Part shown: piece by piece, positions 26,001-61,610 of the stretch
Numbering within the stretch: position 1 is the first letter of the stretch
Layout: each line of letters starts with the position of its first letter
Source: Liolophura sinensis
Lineage: Eukaryota; Mollusca; Polyplacophora; Chitonida; Chitonidae
Length of the DNA stretch: 64,000 nt
Direction of reading: 5' to 3'
Assembly (NCBI RefSeq): GCF_032854445.1
Contig: NC_088302.1
Location: forward strand, 55,406,237-55,470,236
The notes under the pieces: generated by a model
Databases searched by the model: none
Told to the model about the DNA's origin: nothing
Seen by the model: the letters and a program-made list of their open reading frames with translations, nothing else
Position numbers and translations under genes: made by a program

Positions 26001-28038
26001 AACCAGTCATACATGACTTTATTCCAGCACCTTACCATGATTCACAAACACTGGCTGAAGCACACACTTTATACCAGCACCTTACCATGATTCACAAACA
26101 CTGGCTGAAGCACACACTTCATACCAGAACCTTAACGTGATTCGCAAACACTGGGTGAAGCACACACTTTATACCAGCACCTTACCATGATTCACAAAAA
26201 CTGGGTGAAGCACACACTTTATACCAGCACTTTACCATGATTCACAAACACTGGGTGAAGCACACACTTTATCCCAGCACCTTACCATGATTCACAAACA
26301 CTGGCTGAAGCACACAGTTCATACCAGAACCTTAACGTGATTCACAAACACTGGGTGAAGCACACACTTTATACCAGCACCCTACCATGATTCACAAACA
26401 CTGGGTGAAGTACACACTTCATACCAATACCTTACCATGATTCACAAACACTGGGTGAAGCACACACTTTATACCAGCACCTTACCATGATTCACAAACA
26501 CTGGCTGAAGCACACACTTTATACCAGCACCTTACCATGATTCACAAACACTGGCTGAAGCACACACTTCATACCAGAACCTTAACATGATTCACAAACA
26601 CCGGGTGAAGCACACACTTCATACCAGCGCCTTAATGTGATTCACAAACACTGGGTGAAGCACACACTTTATACCAGCACCTTACCATGATTCACAAACA
26701 CTGGGTGAAGCACACACTTTATACCAGCACCTTACCATGATTCACAAACCCTGGGTGAAGCATACACTTTATACCAGCACCTTACCATGATTCACAAACA
26801 CCGAGTGAAGCACACACTTCATACCAGCACCTTAACTTGATTCACAAACACTGGGTGAAGCACACACTTTATACCAGCACCTTCCCATGATTCACAAACC
26901 CTGGGTGAAGCACACATTTTATACCAGCACCTTACCATGATTCACAAACACTGGGTGAAGCATAGCGTTAACTGCAGCTCCAGAATCCTCTGCAGAAATC
27001 CGCACACCATTCAAAACAGCCTGGCATTTCTCTGCCTCTGCCATGTCTGAGAACACAACAAACGAGTATGGTCTCTGGGGTATCATGACAATCTCTGTGA
27101 TGTGGCCACACATCTGAACAAGGGAGAGAATCTGTTCCTTTGTCACACCATTGTCCAGCCCAGCATTGTATATACACAGAATCTGTAAACAGGAAAATAT
27201 GACACAAAATGAACAAAATTAAACAATCAAATCACTGTGCTGATATTTAACCATTTAAAATTGGATTTAAACAATGTTTTCATCAAGCTCAACAATCTTT
27301 TTTCCTTCATCATGTTCGCTGCTTGCTGATGAATAACCAGATTTTTCTAATTTGTATATCAACAGGATTTCAGTGCTAAACAACAATTAACTAGGCTGAA
27401 ATGTTTTATGGCACCATCAAAATGAAATGCTTAATTAATGCCTCAAATAAGGACTGTTTCATGTTAAACACCAATTAAGACTGATATATTAAGAGAGAAA
27501 ATTGTGAAACAGACACATGTTTGATTAAGACACAGAAAAGCAGAGGAGACATGAAAATGGATATGAATTTTCACTTCATTCATTATCTTAACGAATTTAT
27601 TTCTCTGATTGGTGTTTTACACCGCACTTAAGAATATTTGACTTAGACAGTGGCCTACATTATCATGGGCGAAAACTGGGAAGATCCCGGAGGGAACCCA
27701 TGACCGGCAGCTGGTTACTGACAGACATTTCAACACAGAGGAAAGCCAGCCAATGGAAGCCAGATGTCAACACCGGTGTCTTAAAAGGTTTCACCAAATA
27801 TGGGACATTACCAATGTGTAAAATATTCATTTAGTGCACACCGAAAGGAGAAATTAATACAGAAAACTCATATTTAGGTATGATATGATAACAGATGAAC
27901 CTTGGTGGGAAGTTCAGATATGTCTACTCCTTGATCGTACAAAACATGCTTGACTCTGTTCTGTTTTTTGGCAAGACGCTTGTCGGCTTTAGGTGGTCTA
28001 GTTTTCCTGTCATGTTTTTGGTCCGAATTTACGGGCAT
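20088..28038 (-). CDS. ALKBH8: ALKBH8: tRNA wobble-uridine methyltransferase and AlkB-type dioxygenase, 11 coding exons
   Basis: Coding exons, 5' to 3' on the minus strand: 28038-27901, 27182-26936, 25610-25485, 25146-24946, 24373-24303, 23749-23533, 23081-23039, 22432-22366, 22033-21878, 21465-21316, 21050-20088. Together they make 2379 nt, 792 residues plus stop, all phases in frame. Order: basic N-terminus ([12 protein letters not shown]), RRM about 47-128, AlkB about 129-333 with the iron ligands HVD (about 242-244) and His in YVWSHAIT (about 296) and the 2-oxoglutarate arginine in [11 protein letters not shown], then a TRM9-like methyltransferase with [12 protein letters not shown] (about 404-415), AVIHHL and YVWAMEQE. 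In other animals ALKBH8 with TRMT112 makes mcm5U at tRNA position 34 and the AlkB domain hydroxylates it. Compared with the roughly 664-residue human protein, this one has a Ser/Thr-rich insert of about 180 residues (about 522-704) before the conserved tail [13 protein letters not shown] and [13 protein letters not shown]. Exon 1 uses a weak donor (AAG|GTTCAT). Exon 2 ends in a minisatellite that repeats its own donor. Confidence 0.95.
23943..24070 (-). mobile_element. SINE family A, partial, reverse orientation
   Basis: Reads AATAAAT-type tail first on the plus strand (TTTATTTGATTGGTGTTTCA), then the reverse complement of the CCACCATAATGCTGG and GGATGGTCGTGGGTT body words. The tRNA-like head is missing. 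It lies in an ALKBH8 intron. Confidence 0.75.
24604..24697. repeat. 21-bp tandem repeat, about four copies
   Basis: Unit CCTCTGGGCTRTGCTCAGTTT, repeated about four times with few changes, in an ALKBH8 intron. It is a multiple of three and stays open on the plus strand, but nothing suggests that it is coding. Confidence 0.85.
25812..25950 (+). mobile_element. SINE family A, 3' part
   Basis: Starts in the body (TGGTCGTGGGTTTCCCCCAG), continues with CCTACCATAATGCTGG and ATTCTTGCGTACAGCATAAA, and ends in a four-fold AAATAAAT tail. The pol III promoter part is absent. It lies in ALKBH8 intron 2, next to the 50-bp donor minisatellite. Confidence 0.8.
26018..26960. repeat. 50-bp minisatellite that duplicates the ALKBH8 exon 2 splice donor, 19 copies
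   Basis: Exact 50-bp register: the word CTGGSTGAAG (or a one- or two-base variant) stands at 26051, 26101, 26151 and so on to 26951. On the coding (minus) strand each unit reads as the last 25 or so bases of exon 2 (CTTCACCCAGTGTTTGTG, AATCATG) followed by the donor GTAAGG and about 20 intron bases. The last plus-strand unit overlaps the functional exon, whose donor is at 26935-26934. By eye, 13 of the 19 units keep the CATG|GTAAGG-type junction with GT intact; the others carry changes such as AACGTG or AACTTG on the plus strand at the same place. Confidence 0.95.
27596..27735 (-). mobile_element. SINE family A, partial, reverse orientation, diverged
   Basis: Plus-strand words TTCTCTGATTGGTGTTTTAC, AAGAATAT and CCCATGACCGGCAGCTGG match the reverse complement of the family tail and body. 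It lies in ALKBH8 intron 1. Confidence 0.6.
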
Positions 28039-37300: not shown

Positions 37301-40300
37301 ATTTTTTTAAATTTTTGATTTATTTATTTATTTTTTATTTTTATGATATACCTATAATGATGTAGTTACTTTTTTGTTTTAAAACAGAGAAAGTGAAAGT
37401 TATAATTACTTACAAAGTTAGGAACAAATGAACATGAAATTACATGGAAGTCGGCTGGTAGCCATGTAAAGCTTATAGAATAAATCAGTTTATCTCATAT
37501 AAATGAATTTTCTTGTTTTGTGACCTGAAATTTTCAAAGATAACTTGTCAGTGTGATGTACACTAGATATCTAAGGTAGTTGCTCTAAAATCCCAGAGTA
37601 TTTGCCAGAATCTTTTATTATGTGATGTGGGATTAGGCTTCCAGTTTTATAGTCATAGGTATTATCCGAAGTGTATGTATGAGGTTTGGGTTTTTGGACA
37701 TACACCACATACACCCCTGACCACTGTGTCTGCTTGTGAGGGGGCGGGTCCCTGACACTACAGAGGTGTCAGCACTGAAATGCCATGCTGTACATGTAGG
37801 TAACTGACACTACAGAGATGTCAGCACTGAAGTGCCATGCTGTACATGTAGGTAACTGACACTACAGAGGTGTCAGCACTGAAGTGCCATGCTGTACATG
37901 TGTGAGGTTTGGGTTTTTGGACATACACCACATACACCCCTGACCACTGTGTCTGCTTGTGAGGGGGCGGGTCCCTGACACTACAGAGGTGTCAGCACTG
38001 AAATGCCATGCTGTACATGTAGGTAACTGACACTACAGAGGTGTCAGCACTGAAGTGCCATGCTGTAGATGTAGGTAACTGACACTACAGAGGTGTCAGC
38101 ACTGAAGTGCCATGCTGTACATGTAGGTAACTGACACTACAGAGGTGTCAGCACTGAAGTGCCATGCAGTACCTGTAGGTAACTGACACCGATGCCTAAT
38201 GTTACGGTATTGAAAACAGCAACAGAAAACAGACTCAGTGACTCAATATTACAATGTAAACAATGCTTTATAGATAAAATGAGACGTACAGTTTTACAGA
38301 CAGTTCAACAACAACAACATAAAAAAAACATACACATCAGTATTACCGGTCTTTAAAAGTTTCCAGTTCACCTTTGCATCCCAAGGAACGTATTCCAGGA
38401 GATCCAACGTAAAGACCATGGGATAAACACACAATTCACACACGTCACAAATTGTCCCAGTCAGGTACTTCGCTAGGTTAGCGAACGCGAACACTGTACA
38501 CAGGCTACACAGAACTGGAACAGTCAAGCCTTTGAATGACGTCACACCCGCAGAGCACAACACAGGGTAAATCCAGGCATGGAGGTATAATCCACTTTAG
38601 AACAGTCACAGCTCCCGCAGAAACTCACAAACGAGCCGTTCAGAGACGTAGAGTAATGTCACCTTGTGGCAGTACGAACGTCCTTTGCAAAACTGAAAAC
38701 TTCAGTTTAGAGTCCGTGACGACCTTGTCGGTCAGGTGAGGTCAGCGTGTTAAACAAATTACACAGTCAACACTGTATAATCATAATAAAGATCCGAACA
38801 CCAATAAACGTGACTTCCGCAGAAATTCACTTAAACCAGACATCAGTACAACTGTGTTACACGAACGGTGCCGGCATAGAAATCTGTCCTCCCAAACGAA
38901 ACTGGGATCACCAGCTCATATCAATATAATGGACTCGATACGAGAGCGTCGCACACTCTCATGGCTCCCAGTGGATGCAGCAAAAATACCTCCTCTCTGC
39001 ACAGAAAACACGGCTTATATATGTTCCAGGTGGATTCAACTATTCTTATACACAGAATTAACAGCCAATGAAATAAACGAAGCATTGAACAAGGTGCTTT
39101 CGATCCAAGTCCAAGTCCAAGTAATGTTGCGTAGCTCCAGAGGTAGTTCAAGGATATGACTGTAGGGTTTTTAAATACCAGTCAAACACCGAGACCATTG
39201 TGGACCTCAGTGTCAGTTATGTGGGGTTATTGTACGTCTGTGTGATTGTACAAACAAGTTAATATGAAAAGTATGGCTGCATGTTTATGGCTCATTAGTA
39301 TGTGGATTAAGATCCTTGAAAAGTGCAGGAAAACAAGACTATTTAAATCCTTGAAAGTTTTGGGAAAAGATTTTTTTCAGAAGTGTGGTTCTACCTTTGT
39401 TTGTATCTGTATCATCTGTATTATGGTGATTTTTCTGTTCTAAAATTAATAAATCGTCAAATGCCATGTTATTCAACATTACCTTGAGGGTTAGATATTT
39501 GTTTCCTCAGACATGCCTCACACATATATTCATATTCTGTTGTACTTATATTTCAGTTTGAGAGCAATCAGAAGCTTGGATTGATCAAAGCTCTGATAGA
39601 GGTAGAGGATTGGCCTAACGCCAAGTGTATCATGGACAGAATGCCTCCGTTCTTTGCATCCTCTCACAAAGCCGTGTCTGCAGCTCTCTGTTCTCTGATC
39701 CATGCCATCATGGAGCCCCTGTACAGGAAGTAAGTACTTCCTCGGTGTTGCCAGTGTGCTCATTCATGGATTCCTTGGCCTGAAATGCTTTGTAATTCTG
39801 GGTTTCACCTGTTCTTTACATCATATTATACCTATTTTCCCCTTAAATCAGTTCAGACATTAATTCATTTCTAAAATGGAAGTGATGTATGCGATGCTGA
39901 TAGGTAATGTAACAACAACAAAGATGTAAAACCATGTCTTGCAATGAAGCAAAGCACTAAATTTCAGAAAATTTTTATTCTCTTCGTACACCAGGATTTG
40001 TGAATAGTTCTAAGATTGTATTAGTACAAACCCGTTCAGACATAAATGGTTGATCCTCAGGCACACAGGTCTTCCCAGCTCTGTATCCAGGAAGAGGATG
40101 AGGGATGGCAGTCAGCAGCCATTGGCTGTGGGGTCCATCAACTCGTATCAGGGTTTACACAGACAAGTGTTTCCCATGCTCAGCTACCTGGGGCCCAGTC
40201 TACACAATGATGTCCTCCTCATTGCCAAAATCATCCGTCTGGGCAAGGCTTTCATGAACATGGTATGTGCTCAACATGTTTGACCATAACTGATGAAATA

Positions 40301-43300
40301 AAATGTCTTTGGGAAGTACTGCTTGAGACTTTTAGCTGTAAATTTCAGTCTCCTTCAACAGTGTGAATTGCCATGCCTATGCTAGCTATGATTTACTGAA
40401 CTAATAAAAACATGTGTTCATTTCCTCTGGGACTGACTGTCGTGTAAGGCATCCATCAAAAGAACAGACAAATGACAAGTTGGTGTGTGATGTTTGGTAT
40501 GGGTGTTTCAGAGGAGAGATGGGGGTATATCCCCAGAGGATGACCTGGCTTACTATGGGTTTCTCACCATGCTGGATGAGGTGATCTTACCCAGCCTCAC
40601 CCTGCTTCCCTGTAACTGCTCTATCTCAGAGGAGCTCTGGAGTCTTCTCAAACTCTACCCCTATGAGCTCAGGTATGTGTTCTCATGTGTTACAGTACTA
40701 AAATCTAATTAAGTTAACACAAGCAAGAATAATGTAAACAGTGTTCGGATAAACTGGCTTTTGTGGTGAAATGGTCATTGTATAGGACATGGAACCCTGG
40801 TCAGGAAGACAGGATGGAAAAGTGTAGTTTTGAAGACTGCCCAAAAACAAACCTTTGTGCAGATGTGAATCTTACTAATATGGTTATTTGATAGTTATGA
40901 ATGTAATTAATGAGACTTTATTTATTATTATTTCTGGCTTTCAGGTATCGCTTGTATGGTCGGTGGAAAAATGAGACATGTAACGTACACCCTGCCTTAA
41001 TTCGGGCTAAGGCAGACTGTCTGGACAGAGCGAAATACATAATGAAGTAAGTCAAAAGTTCTGCTGATACAGGTGGATGTAAGCTTTCTTGAGGTGTAAT
41101 AGGCTGTAATGTTAAGGTTACAACGAGTTAATTAACTTGAAAGTCTGTAGTGCAGTATGCATCTGATCATGTATCCTTGTCTTTATAAATAGTTACCATA
41201 ATATGGTTACCTGGTGAAAGGGGATTTCCCCGCCTTTTGCCGTTAATCTACCATATGACAACTTGTCTGTTGTGTATAAAATTAGTGTTAATGAAGTTCA
41301 GTGAAATTTTTTTTAATTATTTTTCGTATTATTTGAATATTTTCAGACGTCTTGCTAAGGAGAATGTGAAACCCTCAGGAAGGCAGCTAGGCAAACTCAG
41401 TCACAGTAGTCCCGGTACTGTGTTTGAATATGTAAGTTACAGCTCTTAAATACTTCAGCTTTGAAGGGCCATAATTTAAGTACACTGACCGTATAATATA
41501 ATATTGCTGCAGCTTGTCCTTAGCATGAATTTCAATCTTTTGAGGTGAGTTTTAATTAGATTTTGGTTGGATGATTTTATAACTGACGTGTATATCCCTT
41601 CACTATATCTTACTTTCTGTGTCCAGGTGTTATCACAGATCCAGAGATATGACAATTTCATTGGCCCTGTGGTGGACTCAATGAAGTTTCTAACATCTCT
41701 GTCCTATGACATGTTGACATGTATCCTTTAACCTGAAATGTTGACATCTATGCTGGTAATCCTTATTTGGGATAAATCTTTTGGGATGCATTGGTAAGCC
41801 AGAGTCATTCCTAACCAATTGTTGAGTGTTGTGCAGTAGTAGATAATAGTACTGTGCTCTGTCAGGTACTTGGCAAGGTGTGCTGTTTTCTTTCTGGCAT
41901 AAACCAGTTATCATATAAGTGAAAACCATAAATGCCAATCAAATAATCGAGTATGGTAATTATAATAAAAGATTTACAGCATAGAGAGTAAAGGCAGATC
42001 AGTGAAGACAAGAAGCAGTTAGAAATTTTGAAGCAGTTAGAAGCAGTAACGTTCTTTTAGGTCACATTGGCAAAATCATTATATGCGTTTCAAAAACCTG
42101 GCGATTTGTGTGAGTATAAATTGAATGATGACTTTCTAAGTTGATGTGTAGATGATGTGCAGTTCTGACCTTAACTTTACTAAAGACTGTATCATTGAAG
42201 CCGTGGCTAACCCAGAAAAGGAGCGTCTGAAGCACGATGACACCAATATATCACTGTGGTTACAGAGTAAGTAGATTCGAAGAAGTCACATGGCCCATTG
42301 TTAACATGTGGTCAGGTCCGTGTCGATTTAACAGAAATAAATCAGTAATCTGTTTGCAATTGTTAATACAAATAAATAAAGTTATACACATTATGATAAT
42401 ACAGATTATCTGTACGATGTGTAAGAGAATTAGTGGTAATAAGTCAAGATCTATCACAAGAGGGAAACTCTCTATGTACGATGTGTAAGTAAGAGAGTTA
42501 GTGGTAATAAGCCAAGACCTATCACAAGAGGGAAACTATATGTACGATGTGTAAGTAAGAGAGTTAGTGGTAATAAGTCAAGACCTATCACTAGAGGGAA
42601 ACTCTATATGTACGATGTGTAAGTAAGAGAGTTAGTGGTAATAAGTCAAGACCTATCACTAGAGGGAAACTCTATATGTACGATGTGTAAGTAAGAGAGT
42701 TAGTGGTAATAAGTCAAGACCTATCACTAGAGGGAAACTATATGTACGATGTGTAAGTAAGAGAGTTAGTGGTAATAAGTCAAGACCTATCACTAGAGGG
42801 AAACTCTCTCTCTCTCTCTCTATATATATGTATATGCTAAATGCTAATTTATGTTTCAGGTTTGGCCAACTTTGCTGGGTCCATATGTAAAAAGTACCAG
42901 ATTGAGCTGACAGGAATGCTACAGTATGTAGCCAATCAACTGAAAGCAGGCAAAAGGTAAGTGCCTGATTTACAGTTTAAACCTGTGGTAATTGATTAAG
43001 GATCACAGTGAAAATGCTCTTTGAAATGTTTTAAAATTTCTGAATGTATAAATTCTGGACTAGTCTTAGTGACGATTTTGAATGTGTGAAGTCTAAGCTC
43101 TTTATAAGACATACATATACATTTACTTCTTGGTGATATCTACTAAAGACACTTTAACATGTTGTGGTGTTTTTGAGCGAATGCCATATTCATCAAAATT
43201 GGAACGTATGAAACGAAGTTGATTTTGCTTCCGTTCAGCTCATCTCATTTGATCATCTATACTACACATCTCAAAGTGTGAATCTGGTATATTCCTTACC

Positions 43301-45518
43301 ATAGAAAGTTTCTGGCATTGCCTGATAACTGAGGCATTAACAGATGTTCAGTATCTTCTGCCCAGCCCTTAAGGGCAATAATGTTCAGAGACTGTTCATG
43401 TGACAGCCATGGCCATGACCAATAGGGTTCTAATACTTACAGCTCTGTGTGGTTGTGTTTTAGTTTTGACCTGCTGTTGTTGAGGGAGATACTACAGAAG
43501 ATGGCTGGTATAGAGATCTCTGAGGAGATCACAGATGACCAGCTGGAAGCCATGTCAGGAGGGGAGCTTCTCAAGCAGGAGGTGGGTGGCTTTTCTCCAA
43601 GCTCTTCATAGTCATGGGGTACCAAAGAACATTTTCTTAGATTTTCCACAGATGACAATGTGTCACGACTCACATTTGTTCATTTCCGCAGTGGTCATGG
43701 TAACCACATAGCCATTTTTCTTATATATACTTTATCAAGAGTTATGATCTCGTGTCCGGGCTATGAGGCCAACTGTTTTCTGCGTATGGTTTTAATTTTT
43801 GTTGGATATCTTCACGCATGTTGATGTGTCGTGACTCATATTTGTTAATTGTGGCTGTTTGCCATGGTTCCCAGATGGCCAGTTTCCCTATATACACTAT
43901 ATAGATAGATATGATTTTGTGCCCGGGCTATAACTCCATTTGTTTTCTCTGTAGAGCTTTAATTTTGTTGGACACATACATAAACAGATGATGATGTGTC
44001 TCGACTCACATTTGTCCATTCTTTGCTGTTGTCATGGCTACCAAATTGCCATTTCCCTATGTATACTATATAAATAGATATGATTTCCTGTCCAGGCTAT
44101 AGCCCCAGTTGTTTTCCACATGGTTTTAATTTTTCATGGATATATAGATACACAGATGATGATGTGTCACGACTCACATTTGTCTAGTTTTGCTGTTGTC
44201 ATGGTAACCAGATAACCATTTTCCTTATATATGCTGTATAAATAGATATGATTTTGTGTCCTATCTACAACTCCAACTGTTTTCCACACAGAGGTTTATT
44301 TTTTGGTATATATATATATATATGTATAGATGACGATGTGTCACGATTCACAATTGACCACTTCCATGGTTGCCATGGGAACAAGATAGCCATTTTCCTT
44401 CAATGTACAATGTAAATAAAAATGATTTCGTGTCTGGGCTTCAACTCCAACTGTTTTCCACACAGAGTATTCATTTTTGGTGGACACATCTGTCCACTTT
44501 TGCGGCTGTCATGATAACCACATGCCTGTCATCAACTCCCGTGAAGATTCCCCTTAGGGGTTATATTCACCACAATACTGCTGGTATTTCTTTATACATT
44601 TCAAACAGATGCATTTGTTAGGGTGTATGCTCAGCTGACATCAGAGGCCTTTTGTGCTCACCCAACATCGGAGGCCCTCTATGCTCACCTGACATTAGAG
44701 GCCTTCTATGTTCACCTGACATCAGAGGCCCTCTATGCTCACCTGACATTAGAGGCCCTTGGGCGGGATGCACATTGGCTTTATTCACAGTTGTGTAAGC
44801 TCACCCACCCAAGCTAATCTCTATTGAGACGTTAAGTAGTTAGGTGTTTGATAGAATTTCCATTAGACAGTCAGTTAGTGAGTCCATAACCCGTACGAAT
44901 TTGTCAAAGCAATGTGTACTTGTTTGTTAGCATCTTGAAATTTACACTTCGCATTAGCTGTTTGTTGGACTTCTCATGTCATTTCTTTTATGTCTAATAA
45001 TATGACTCAAACACTGGCTGTATCCTGCAATAAAGCTGCACTGTATTTCATTTACATCGATTTCATCAGTGATGATGCTGCAGTTATTGTATACAGGCAT
45101 GTGATTATTTTACAGGGTGGATACTTCTCTCAAGTGAGGAACACCAAAAAGTCGTCCACAAGGTTAAAAGATGTATTGTTGGAAAATGATTTGGCGTTGT
45201 CTCTGTGTATGCTGATGGCTCAGCAGAGGGATGGGGTGATCTATCGTGAAGGCGAGGAACGGCATCTCAAACTTGTGGGCAAACTCTATGACCAGGTAAG
45301 TGACTGTCAGTCAAAACATTTGTTCTAAAATCTTCTGTTTAGCAACACTGTAAATCTGTGATTTGTCTTGCAAACCTGTAAGTTGACGGACAGGTTTATG
45401 GGTGATGAAAACCGGTGCGCCCTGAGGAAAGCACCACCCTAAGCCAGATACATGAGAGCCCCCTTATTTAAAGTCACAGCCGACGCGTGATTTACATTAG
45501 AGAAATAAACAATATTTA

Positions 45519-48500: not shown

Positions 48501-51500
48501 CAGTAATAATGTGATCTGTGTCTATCGGTATTGTAGGACTTTCCGTTGGCCACTTTTGGCTGAGCACCACTAACACAAGTATTACCACTTCTGATAATTT
48601 TCTCATTACACACTCTACAGTCACGTCTCTCTTTAGTGTAGACAGGCAGGTGTGTGCCAACCTCCTGCAGCCTATGTACCTCAGTAGGATCTCCAATCGA
48701 TGGCCTACCCTTTTTCTGCCGGTATGATCGGCCACCAATCAAAGGCTTGGCAAGTTCCATTTTATAGGTCAAGTATGGTATTTTTTTCATTCCAAACTTT
48801 TCACGAGTGGCAGATTCAACAACATAAGAAGCCATGTATCATGTGGTTAGCTGGGTTATATTCATGTTGCCAGTCAGCATCATTATTGGGCTGTTCAAAA
48901 TGTACTCCAACACGCTGTCCGTTGTCCTCTTCCACGTCCCCTGCCACGCCCCCTGCTGCGCCCTATGTCCGTATGGCCATTTACCTGTCCCGTAGTATTC
49001 CTATTTACTCCAGTTACCTGGGTATTATCATCTGTACTGCCATCATATGAAGTGTCAGATTGCATTTCGTAATCGCTGGAAACCTCAGAGTCAGAATCCA
49101 CGGAATAGTCCATTTCCTGATAAATAGGCTCAATGCTCACACCTGAGCACCCATTCTGCACCGGTAAGACACCTGGATTGCTCACCGGACCGTCAAATGT
49201 TGTTGTTGTACTGCCGGAATTGTCCTCCGAGTCCGATTCATCGGAGCTATAATCACTTTGTAACTAGTCACAGTCATACTCCCATTCGGAATCTAAAACC
49301 GCGTCAACAGCTTCCTGGGTATTTAGTAACAATCGCCGCGTCGCCATGTTCATGAATCAGGATGAAAATCCAGGTAAAAACAGTGAAAAGCTCGACTCAG
49401 GTGGCTGTCACACGTCTACATGGGAGCCGCCATTACTGCTAGACATTTCAATTGTGCTAACCCCCCTCTAGGGCCAATTCATTAGTGGGTCAAGTAAATT
49501 AAACAAAACCACGTGTTTACCGGCCAAATTTGGCCGGTCCGTCTGGAAAGGGTTAATAGAGGAAGTTGTGACTTCCTGACTTCACGTTCAGCATAAAGGG
49601 GACAGTGCAACAACTGGTTGACTTGTATCAGTATAATGGCTCGGGAGGGGCGGCTTACTTGCCTTTGGTAAGATGTCTCAGTGAAGCAGTACTAGATAAA
49701 AAGAGCGGTCGAAATCCGTCCTGCAACAAGGAGGCACATTACATGCACCCTAAGGATTCCTTCGTCGTCATGTGACTGAAAAATTGTTAAGTACAACGGT
49801 AAACGCCAAGCATTCATTCACTTACAGGATTTTGTTTTTCTTTAGCTGTGTCTTAAGCCAACTGCGCCTCAACTTTACAGCTGGTTTTATTTATTACTCT
49901 AGCCCCAGGGTAAGAAGAAGAAAGAGAAGGAGCGGTGTACAAGTCTGAAGGACAAGCTGCAGGAAGAGGAGAAGCGGCAGAACGATCATGTGGGTCGCGT
50001 AATGGCAAGACTTAAGCATGAAAAAGACACCTGGTTTCTCTCCAGTAAGTCAATTTCTCAGTCCTCTCATTTTTACATCTTTCTCAGTGATCAAGCTCTC
50101 ACGTCTTTCACAGTGTGGGCCCTGTGGTGACTAAGCTCTCACATCTTTCACAGTTTGGGCCCTGCACTGGCTGAGCTCCCACATCTTTTATGATGTGGGC
50201 CCTGTAGTGACCAGGTGCTCTGGTATTTAACAATGTGGGCCTTGCAGTGGCCAAGATCTCACATCTTTCACAACGTGGGCCTTGCAGTGGCCAAGATCTC
50301 ATATCTTTTACAATGTGGGCCTTGCAGTGGCCAAAGAACTGGTTCCTCTCCAGTAAGTCAGTTTCTCAATCCTCTAATCTTCTCACAAGGTGTAATGACC
50401 AGACTCAAGCAGTGCACTGTGAACTCTGTGTAGAGCATGATACTGTCACTCCTTTAGTAACTGCTGACCGGTTTTGATTAAATGTACCGCAGATTATTAC
50501 TGCCTAAGATAATATTTTGTTTTTTGTCCACAGGATCCACAAAGAATGAGACGATCACCCAGTTCCTGCAGCTATGTATCTTTCCGCGCTGTTGCTTCAC
50601 TGCCAGTGATGCTGTGTACTGTGCTAAGTACATACAGATACTTCATGATCTCAAGACCACCAACTTCTCCACCCTCATCTGTTACGACAGGGTAATGCCG
50701 AGAATAACAGTCATTCAAACATACGTTAAATGACAAGCAAATAAACGTCATAAAATGTTGCCAGTGGTGCTGAAACTTGCATTCTTCCAGTAGGATATCA
50801 TTTTATTTTCCAAAGAAACCTCAAAACATTCTCCTAGGATCAATGGAACTCTCAGAATCAGGTAAAATGTATGACTTGGTCATGGGGGGAAAGTATATGT
50901 TATATAATCTCCTGTGAGATGAGTTGAGATGCATCATAGTCTTGCAGAAACTGGTTATTCATAGAAAATGGTTCATCAGGTTTCATCTATTTAAGAATTT
51001 TGTTCGTTACTGTTTTCTTTAAGAAGTATTTCATTTTAAATTCTTTCCTTGTTTCAGATTTTCTGTGATATTACCTATTCGGTGACAAGTTGCACTGAAA
51101 ATGAGGCTCATCGTTACGGGAGATTTCTTTGTGCAGCCATGGACACCATTATGAGATGGCACAGTGACCAGGCACTCTATGATAAGGTAGGTGGTAAGGT
51201 TTCAGTTCTAACTCCATGTACATGTAGACAACACTCTGTATAAATAGTCGCCGTACAACTTAAGCTGAAGAATACAATGGCTTTCACTGCATATTATAGA
51301 TTTATTTATTTATTTCATTAGTGCCTTACACCATACTCATGAATGTTTCACTGATACATTGACCAACATTTGCATATTTCAGGGTATATCAGCATATGTT
51401 GATGTATGTGTACACTGTTTCTTACCCTATGGTAATATAAATTCTTCCTTAATTTCTTGGGGGGGCCTCCGTGGCTCAGTTGGTTAGCACGCTAGCGTAG

Positions 51501-54500
51501 CGTAATGACCCAGAAGTCTTTCACCAATGCTGTCGCTGTGAGTTCAAGTCCAGCTCATGCTGGCTTCCTCTCCGGGCGTACGTGGGAAGGTCTGTCAGCA
51601 ACCTGCGGATGGTCGTGGGTTTTCCCCGGGCTCTGCCAGGCTTCCACCCAGCATAATGCTGGCCACCATCGAATAAGTGAAATATTCTTGAGTATGGCAT
51701 AAAACACCAATCAAATAAATTATTTTGTTTTAGCCCATATATATGTAATCCTAGCAGGAATGTTGAGTTCCTTTTTTCTCATACGAATAGACCATCTAAT
51801 CAGCAACATACTCATATCTTTCCTTTTTGAAAAGGTTGTTAAACACGTGTAATATTCTACTTACAACACTAGTCATATCTGTCTCAGCTTTTAGAAGAAT
51901 TAGGGTATTCTGTATGTGATTGGTTGTTTCACATGGTGGCCGTTGTGTTCATTGATTCAGGAGTGTGCGTCCTACCCTGGCTTTGTGACTGTGTTCAGGA
52001 AGGGGGCAGAGGACAGTAACAACAAGGCTGACCAGCTGGACTACGAGAACTACAGACATGTCTGTCACAAGTGGCATTTCAGAATAACAAAGGTACAGAC
52101 TTGGTGCTAAAATGTACCTCTTGTTGACTGCATTCAGGACCAACCACTTTCGAATTAGATCCCTTATTTCACCATGTTGAGTTTCTAACATGCAGAATTT
52201 TGCTGGTGGAGTTTGGTCTACCTCTAAGCTTAGGCTAATGAATACATGCTGTGGAAGCGTTGTACATACATATGTGCATACTATCATATAAGGTTCTGTG
52301 ACACTGAGACATGTTGTGTTATTTTTCAGGCGATGGTGACTTGCTTAGAGTCTGGGAACTACATCCAGATACGGAATGCCCTCATCATCCTGACAAAGGC
52401 AGGTTCTTCAGGGGTGATGTTAGGCGAACTAGCGGAGGCATTTCTGCTGATTTACTCTAATGTTGACACTAAGTGTACATTGTAGTACTTTGTATTAAAA
52501 ATAACAGCTGTTTCATAATTTTCTTAAGGCATGTGTTTCATTTTTTGTGTCCTGAACATATATGTATTCTTACCATTGAATGGATGAAGGAAAACTTCGT
52601 TATAAAGAGAGGGTTACACAATCAAAAGTACATTTTGTTTTTCATTGATGCCCTCTGCACATTAAATGATCACGTAGAAAACAAACACTGAGTAATACAT
52701 TATTTACCAAACATTTGTCAGAACAAATTGTACATGGATTGAGTGTGTTATTTTGCCTCTGTCTCTCACAGATGGTCCATTGATTTACTTATGTTGTCTT
52801 TGTCAGATTTTACCTCACTATCCAAAGATATTACAGTTTGGCCAGGCTGTAGAAAGAAGGGTGGACAGGCTGAGACAAGAGGAGAAAGAGAAGAGGCCAG
52901 ATATATATGCTCTAGCCATGGGGTAAGACAACAGCACAAACCTTAATGCCGAGGTATATACGCTCTAGCCAGGGGGTAAGACAACAGCTCAATCCTTAAT
53001 GCCGAGTTATATACCCTCTACCCACAGGGTAAGACAACAGCACAACCCTTAATGCAGAGGTATATGCCCTCTAGCCAGGGGATAAGACAGCAACACAAGC
53101 CTAAATGCCGAGGTATATACGCTCTGCCCACAGGGTAAGACAACAGCTCAACCCTTAATGCTGAGGTATGTACACTCTAGCCATGGGGTAAGACAACAAC
53201 TCAACCCTTAATGCTGAGGTGTATACGCTCTAACCACGGGGTAAGACAACAGCATAACCCATAATGCCGAGGTATATACCCTCCAGCCACAGGCTAAGAC
53301 AACAGCTCAGCCCTTAATGCTGAGGTGTATACGCTCTAACCACGGGGTAAGACAACAGCTCAACCCTTAATACTGAGGGATGTACGCTCTACCAACAGGG
53401 TAAGACAACAGCTCAACCCTTAATGCCGAGGTATATACACTCTACCCACGGGGTAAGACAACAGCTCAGCCCTTAATGCTGAGGTGTATATGCTCTACCC
53501 ACGGGGTGAGACAACAGCATAACCCCTATTGCCGAGGTATATACACTCCAGCCACAGGGTAAGACAACAACACAACCCTTAATGCCGAGGTATATACCCT
53601 CTAACCACGGGGTAAGACAACAGCACAATCCTTAATGCCGAAGTACATACATTCTAGCCACGGGGTAAGACAACAGACCAACCCTTAATGCCGAGGTATA
53701 TACCCTCTAGCCAGGGGGTAAGACAACAAGACAACCCTTAATGCCGACGTATATACCCTCTAGTCAGGGGGTAAGACAACAACACAACCCTTAATGCCGA
53801 GGTATATACCCCTCTAGCCAGGGAGTAAGACAACAACGCAACCCTTAATGCTGAGATGTGTAAGCTTGTTAAATTGTGGATGTCTTCAGACAGTTTTCTG
53901 TACAAATTGTAATGTTTTGCTAGAGGACAGCTGTGTTAACTTGAGTAAAAAACTCGCAGTGATCCAGGAGTCTCTCACCAATGCAGTCGCTGTGAGTCCA
54001 AGTCCAGCTCATGCTGGCTTCCTCTCCGGCCGCAAGTGGGAAGGTCTGCCAGCAACCTGCGGATGGTCGTGGGTTTCCCCCAGGCTCTGCCCGGTTTCCA
54101 CCCACCATAATGCTGGCCGCCATCGTATAAGTGAAATATTCTTGAGTGCGGCGTAAAACACCAATCAAATAAATAAATAAATTGAGGAAAAAACCGAATT
54201 GAGGGCGTGGAAAGCCATTAAGTTTTACTCTTTCTAGTCACAAGATCAATGCAGTGCATTATTCAGTAGATTCGGACTTATTGTGATCATCATTATCTTC
54301 AGGTATTCTGGTCAGCTAAAGGCTAAGAAATCTTCATGGGTTCCAGAGAATGAGTTCCACCTGAAGGAGAAGGACCAGGTAAGGCTGACAGATGATTACG
54401 CATACGCCTTTTACTTTGTCACATGTTATCCATATTGTCCTGCAAAAAGGAGGCACATTACACTCCTACATTCCTTCGTTGTCATATGACTGAAAGATTG

Positions 54501-61450: not shown

Positions 61451-61610
61451 CTGGCTGAGTGGTAAGAGCGTGTGCCGTGAGGTCATACCACTGGCTGAGT
61501 GGTTAGAGCGTGTGCCGTGAGGTCATACCACTGGCTGAGTGGTTAGAGCGTGTGCCTCAAGGTCATACCACTGGCTGAGTGGTTAGAGCATGTGCCTCAA
61601 GGTCATACCA
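61451..61610 (+). repeat. 40-bp tandem repeat with a tRNA A-box-like core, four copies
   Basis: CTGGCTGAGTGGTTAGAGCG then TGTGCCGTGAGGTCATACCA repeats at 61451, 61491, 61531 and 61571; a diverged part (CTTGGCGAGTGGTTAAAGCA) appears near 61631. TGGCTGAGTGGTTAGAGC matches the 5' part of tRNA-Leu/Ser type genes, but no B-box or cloverleaf follows. Confidence 0.9.

Follow-up and report, generated by a model that had tools for sequence, protein, structure and literature searches.

A donor-containing minisatellite at a THOC2 exon end in the chiton Liolophura sinensis, with comparable arrays at other exon/intron junctions

Results

A minisatellite spans a 5′ splice site of THOC2

Positions within the locus are those of the window, the 64,000-nucleotide stretch of contig NC_088302.1 that was analysed as a whole. 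A THOC2 coding exon of 116 nt lies on the plus strand at 52807–52922, directly behind the acceptor ttgtcag (52800–52806). The exon gave a Pfam Tho2 match (E 1.1e-5), and its translation (ILPHYPK...YALAMG), when spliced to 54303, continues as ...YALAMG/YSGQLK..., to which human THOC2 (PDB 7APK chain B) aligns across the 52922/54303 junction (E 2.1e-24). Because this join matches the human protein across the junction and restores the conserved AMG/YSGQ, the donor at 52923–52931 (plus strand; GG/GTAAGACAA) was identified as the authentic 5′ splice site. The next THOC2 exon, also placed by alignment to human THOC2, occupies 54303–54378 on the plus strand (acceptor cttcag, donor gtaagg). The plus-strand intron between them (52923–54302) is 1380 bp long, of which the array accounts for 933 bp.

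A preliminary description of this DNA had reported an 18-unit, ~53-bp array at this exon, in which the exon end, the donor and some intron bases were expanded downstream and 16 of 18 units kept a GT donor. Indeed, TRF run on the window returned a plus-strand array at 52902–53855 (period 53, 18.0 copies, 84% matches, score 1255). The build was as described: copy 1 is the end of the THOC2 exon, whose last ~21 bases (52902–52922) form the exon side of that copy and are common to the later copies (18 matching). Alignment of the 18 units anchored on the donor (GT positions 52923, 52976 ... 53825) gave the same count of 16 units with GT, missing in units 4 and 8, and a mean pairwise identity of 84%. 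The highest similarity was found among adjacent units (16, 17 and 18) and among separated ones (7/9; 3/5/13), a pattern such as repeated local exchange would leave.

The reading frame beyond donor 52923 meets TAA at once (...ALAMG, stop), and use of a later donor would therefore truncate the protein. When scored with a generic donor matrix, 13 of the 17 later donors were at least as strong as the authentic one, which gives no ground for taking the copies to be silent.

A companion array and other arrays of the window

The second donor array of the window was likewise found to be real. It lies on the minus strand at 26016–26962 and comprises 19 units of 50 bp, the first copy standing at a putative junction that closes an exon coding for an RRM domain (RRM_1, E 2.6e-8), with 27 exon bases shared with the later units. 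The analysis itself matched the RRM domain; the gene is presumed to be ALKBH8, the name used in the preliminary description. Comparison of the units confirmed that those of THOC2 and putative ALKBH8 are unrelated. A third and simpler case was seen on the plus strand at 50031–50385, where a likely THOC2 donor at 50045 (CTGGTTTCTCTCCA/GTAAGTC...) recurs ~300 bp away at 50353 (CTGGTTCCTCTCCA/GTAAGTC...), with a 40-bp array (50085–50334) between the two copies. About 14 exon bases were duplicated along with this donor; its exon was recognised by eye from resemblance to a stretch of human THOC2.

Fairly strong minus-strand donor words also occur in arrays 485–862, 43647–44484 and 44626–44759 (scores 8.1, 8.7 and 10.6). 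These were not counted as junction arrays because no exon was seen by eye before the first and the last, and because THOC2 lies on the plus strand. Inspection by eye also found no exon overlap in arrays 37675–38189 and 42421–42807. The unit of a 40-bp array at 61451–61610 (CTGGCTGAGTGGTTAGAGCGTGTG...) appeared tRNA-like by eye and is perhaps derived from a SINE head.

A DNA search returned the THOC2 unit at a single locus

When the genome was searched at the DNA level by a method that skips very common words, the THOC2 unit was returned at one place only, and the array is therefore attributed to local expansion. This result bears on the reading that an introner-like or other mobile element carrying a donor was inserted at THOC2 and then multiplied, a reading suggested by the donor at the unit edge and by the exon/intron placement, both of which recall introners. 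Dispersed near-identical copies at many loci, as expected of introners, were not seen in this search, which gave one genome match and which weak or very common copies could escape. Furthermore, copy 1 owes its exon half to the THOC2 coding sequence itself, and the putative ALKBH8 unit bears no relation to it.

A SINE-like repeat, which we take to be of a mollusc type, stands directly downstream of both donor arrays (25860 and 54103). A link between such repeats and arrays was considered and rejected: in a strict scan of the window and the nine background blocks described below, 3 of 22 repeats lay no more than 300 bp from the edge of an array, where 2.87 were expected by chance. A looser scan allowing five mismatches was too permissive (136 matches). 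Taken with the single place that the DNA search, which skips very common words, returned for the unit, these data make an inserted element scarcely credible as the source of the THOC2 array.

GT is not preferentially kept in downstream units

The preliminary description had treated the retention of GT in downstream copies as requiring explanation. The two donor arrays of the window, neither of which had been picked out by a donor word, argue otherwise. GT was present in 15 of the 17 downstream THOC2 units and ranked 21 of 52 dinucleotides (mean 0.81), which is average. Among the downstream putative ALKBH8 units its retention was poorer, at 12 of 18 and rank 46 of 49 (mean 0.91). Both ranks were reproduced by a second method. 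In four other arrays, sampled elsewhere in the genome, GT ranked 21 of 30 (L007), 1 of 45 (L014), 5 of 37 (L021) and 1 of 39 (L022), but these ranks are no independent evidence for selection because the arrays were chosen by exact donor words.

In favour of selection on the downstream donors, as decoys or back-up donors tuning THOC2 splicing, stand the strength of the later copies and the stop directly past the exon, which resembles an unproductive-splicing switch. A GT kept no better than other dinucleotides in either array leaves selection on the downstream donors unsupported, and we regard it as very unlikely. The retained GTs need no special cause; slippage or unequal exchange with homogenisation suffices.

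Two arrays in one window are weak evidence of recurrence

The chiton genome is unusually rich in minisatellites. Nine 10-kb blocks, starting at position 10,000,001 of contigs C2–C7 and C9–C11, hold 18 arrays covering 13.3% of the 90 kb; the window, with 15 arrays and 9.7% covered, is of ordinary density by comparison. Such figures favour coincidence, by which minisatellites covering about a tenth of the genome would overlap a few donors by chance with no preference for junctions. From 0.2 arrays per kb and 40–60 donors in the window, the latter a guess, 0.16 to 0.48 donor-overlapping arrays were expected, and the probability of two or more was 0.012 to 0.084. The preliminary description had argued from the two arrays that junctions are a recurrent seed for tandem expansion. 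Both arrays are real, but their positions do no more than hint at recurrence and prove little, and the argument for recurrence is therefore carried by genome-wide word counts and sampled exons.

Donor words are enriched in tandem, an acceptor word is not

The published chiton assembly is described as 609.5 Mb in 632 scaffolds in the available part of its report (PMC11068029), and its species has since been corrected to Liolophura sinensis according to the available part of a later one (PMC12441733). All 632 contigs (609.46 Mb) were scanned. On contigs C99 and C632 a mitochondrial cox1 was noticed in which TGA encodes an amino acid, as an animal origin would predict, and neighbouring mitochondrial genes were recognised by eye; on C99, seven copies of the cox1 region follow one another head to tail at ~15.5-kb spacing, either a mitochondrial concatemer or an assembly product.

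Seven-base words were counted genome-wide both singly and as three copies with 18–48 bases between them, with the reversed word as control. One range of periods and one acceptor word were tried, and the triplet figures are counts of copies rather than of arrays, so that large arrays dominate. Triplets per 1000 occurrences were 34.7 for AGGTAAG (2980/85904) against 17.6 for its reversal (1403/79919), and 46.5 for AGGTGAG (3557/76523) against 22.2 (1172/52755). Pooled AGGTRAG gave 43.8 (7115/162427) against 21.8 (2889/132674). The near-miss AGGTYAG, which differs by one base, equalled its own reversal at 27.5 (3685/134094) and 26.8 (3455/129156). The acceptor word TTTCAGG showed no triplet excess, with 8.3 (1060/127801) against 11.2 (665/59512). 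The donor-word excess is thus about 1.6-fold over the near-miss to 2-fold over the reversal, and it hinges on a purine at +3, as does a real donor; it is not to be read too finely, since the reversed controls alone span 11 to 27 per 1000. With a cluster-inflation factor of 60, set by eye among the matches listed, the AGGTRAG excess had z values of 4.1 (over the reversal) and 3.0 (over the near-miss), and the excesses of the single donor words had z values of 2.7 and 2.8. That both donor words agree, while the near-miss matches its control, speaks against coincidence. These data suggest that arrays are seeded more often at donor junctions than at acceptor junctions, or are better tolerated there.

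Sampled arrays at other exon ends

The sequence upstream of the first copy was read for an exon in 20 distinct donor-word arrays (L003–L022), taken among the matches listed from the first 5.5 Mb of contig C1, a region that is possibly subtelomeric. In 4 of the 20 (one weak), the first donor ends a homology-supported exon. These exons encode ankyrin (L007, E 2.1e-9, 23 exon bases shared with the array), Raptor (L012, E 5e-11, 12 bases), an Fe-hydrogenase C-terminal domain (L022, E 1.8e-12, 35 bases) and, with a match that does not reach Pfam's cut-off, alpha-L-fucosidase (L021, E 0.0011, 3 bases). A further four carry a plausible exon, with an open frame and in some an acceptor-like AG, and share 10 (L011), 34 (L014), 49 (L020, 36 matching) and 5 (L013) exon bases. 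At least 10 exon bases, the overlap asked for in the preliminary description, are therefore shared in L007, L012 and L022 of the homology set and in L011, L014 and L020 of the plausible set; L021 and L013 fall short. Pfam searches of the L014 and L020 exons gave nothing for one and a chance-level match for the other (E 0.097), and their upstream ORFs gave nothing convincing at E 0.01. In the other 12 sampled arrays no exon was seen before the first copy, which accords with coincidence. Several of the 3- to 4-kb pieces in this sample, each chosen for one array, carry at least two further unrelated minisatellites.

Among the matches listed, 19 acceptor-word arrays were read in the same way; one ends at a firm exon and two at plausible ones. 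The firm case (L029, C1:8726700–8728700) is an acceptor-side array at an exon of the GH18 (chitinase) family (E 3.1e-10). Of the plausible two, L035 had no Pfam match and L040 a tetraspanin match below the cut-off (E 0.003).

ORFs of at least 60 codons were no more frequent at the edges of donor-word arrays (5/26) than at those of others (18/103), a comparison in which the THOC2 and putative ALKBH8 arrays stood among the others because their donors are not AGGTRAG. This negative result is a further point for coincidence; as an exon detector, ORF length is uninformative, and homology was relied on instead.

The recurrence of arrays at donor junctions is thus partly supported. Other junctions do carry such arrays, and AGGTRAG is in excess where the acceptor word is not; on the other side, the excess is modest, the density of minisatellites permits chance overlaps and the ORF-length comparison showed no difference. 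Coincidence without any junction preference is accordingly judged unlikely, though it deserves real weight. A mutational preference for donor junctions and a better survival of donor-side arrays cannot be separated here.

Discussion

The structure of the array, the identity of its exon and junction, the average conservation of GT and the presence of similar arrays at other exon ends lead us to read the THOC2 array, with a probability of about 0.8, as a mirage-type minisatellite that arose by duplication across the donor, then grew and was partly homogenised, its downstream copies being unused. In the path that we infer, a ~53-bp stretch straddling the donor of the THOC2 exon would have been tandemly duplicated, and slippage, unequal exchange or gene conversion would then have enlarged the array and made its copies partly uniform. 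Growth would have been possible on the intron side only, with copy 1 remaining the exon end and presumably the donor used in vivo. Growth into the intron would have been harmless, since it leaves the exon bounded by its original donor; growth toward the exon would not. Copies 2–18 would be removed with the intron by splicing, and the array probably has no function; the downstream GTs would persist through the relatedness and partial homogenisation of the copies rather than through use.

Tolerance is probably part of the difference between donor and acceptor sides. The splicing machinery can pass over surplus donors that follow a good one, but not surplus AGs by the 3′ splice site. In an acceptor-side array, additional AGs would come to lie close to the branch point; such arrays should then be tolerated less well, in agreement with the missing excess of the acceptor word. 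Tolerance alone yields no excess over neutral sequence, and some seeding preference, or an effect of gene context, may therefore play a part. A bolder proposal is that, in this chiton lineage, minisatellites are born preferentially at 5′ splice junctions but not at acceptor junctions, so that the genome would hold hundreds of young mirages and a standing supply of donors. We advance it tentatively, at less than even odds. If it is true, the duplicated donors would be raw material from which introns could be gained or could slide and new isoforms could arise. The excess of the donor word over a one-base near-miss and over an acceptor word puts a number in place of anecdote, and natural arrays of near-identical donors offer material for studying how the spliceosome picks the first donor.

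The THOC2 array may be compared with three known systems. In intron gain by tandem duplication, a duplication around splice-competent sequence reportedly gives rise to a new intron. The THOC2 array shares such a duplication, but here it is an old junction that was copied repeatedly within an intron already present, and no new one was seen. Introner elements are splice-site-bearing copies dispersed in multiple through a genome; the THOC2 array also has multiple splice-site-bearing copies, but the DNA search returned its unit at one place only.

The closest likeness is to the mirages of amphioxus, which the available parts of two reports (PMC3087553, PMC3902484) describe as minisatellite-like tandem repeats across exon/intron boundaries. 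They are reported there from Adh3 and the globins BflGb6 and BflGb9 (PMC3087553, which names RDH and presenilin as similar cases), and from TnC and PGBD5 (PMC3902484). They are found at either end of introns, are reported to be unstable, in length between haplotypes and also somatically, and to leave regular splicing undisturbed, and have been proposed as a route to new introns (PMC3087553, PMC3902484). A limited search of the open literature found mirages reported from amphioxus genes only, and none from a mollusc.

The THOC2 array shares the structural features: it is a tandem minisatellite-like array (18.0 copies of 53 bp), its unit spans an authentic exon/intron boundary and includes exon sequence, and the splice signal stands in many but not all copies (GT in 16 of 18). 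As far as the available parts of the two reports go, the resemblance extends to the tandem duplication of an authentic boundary, to units of tens of bp (10–72 bp in Adh3), to a splice signal kept in many copies rather than all, and to the occurrence of donor-side and acceptor-side cases. On the same basis, the chiton differs from amphioxus in that the array lies in a mollusc and has 18 copies, compared with 3 to 6 units in BflGb6, and in that a genome-wide donor-word excess has been measured for it. The THOC2 array is therefore a known kind of structure, the mirage, in another phylum, and cases in so distant a phylum make the proposed route to new introns testable.
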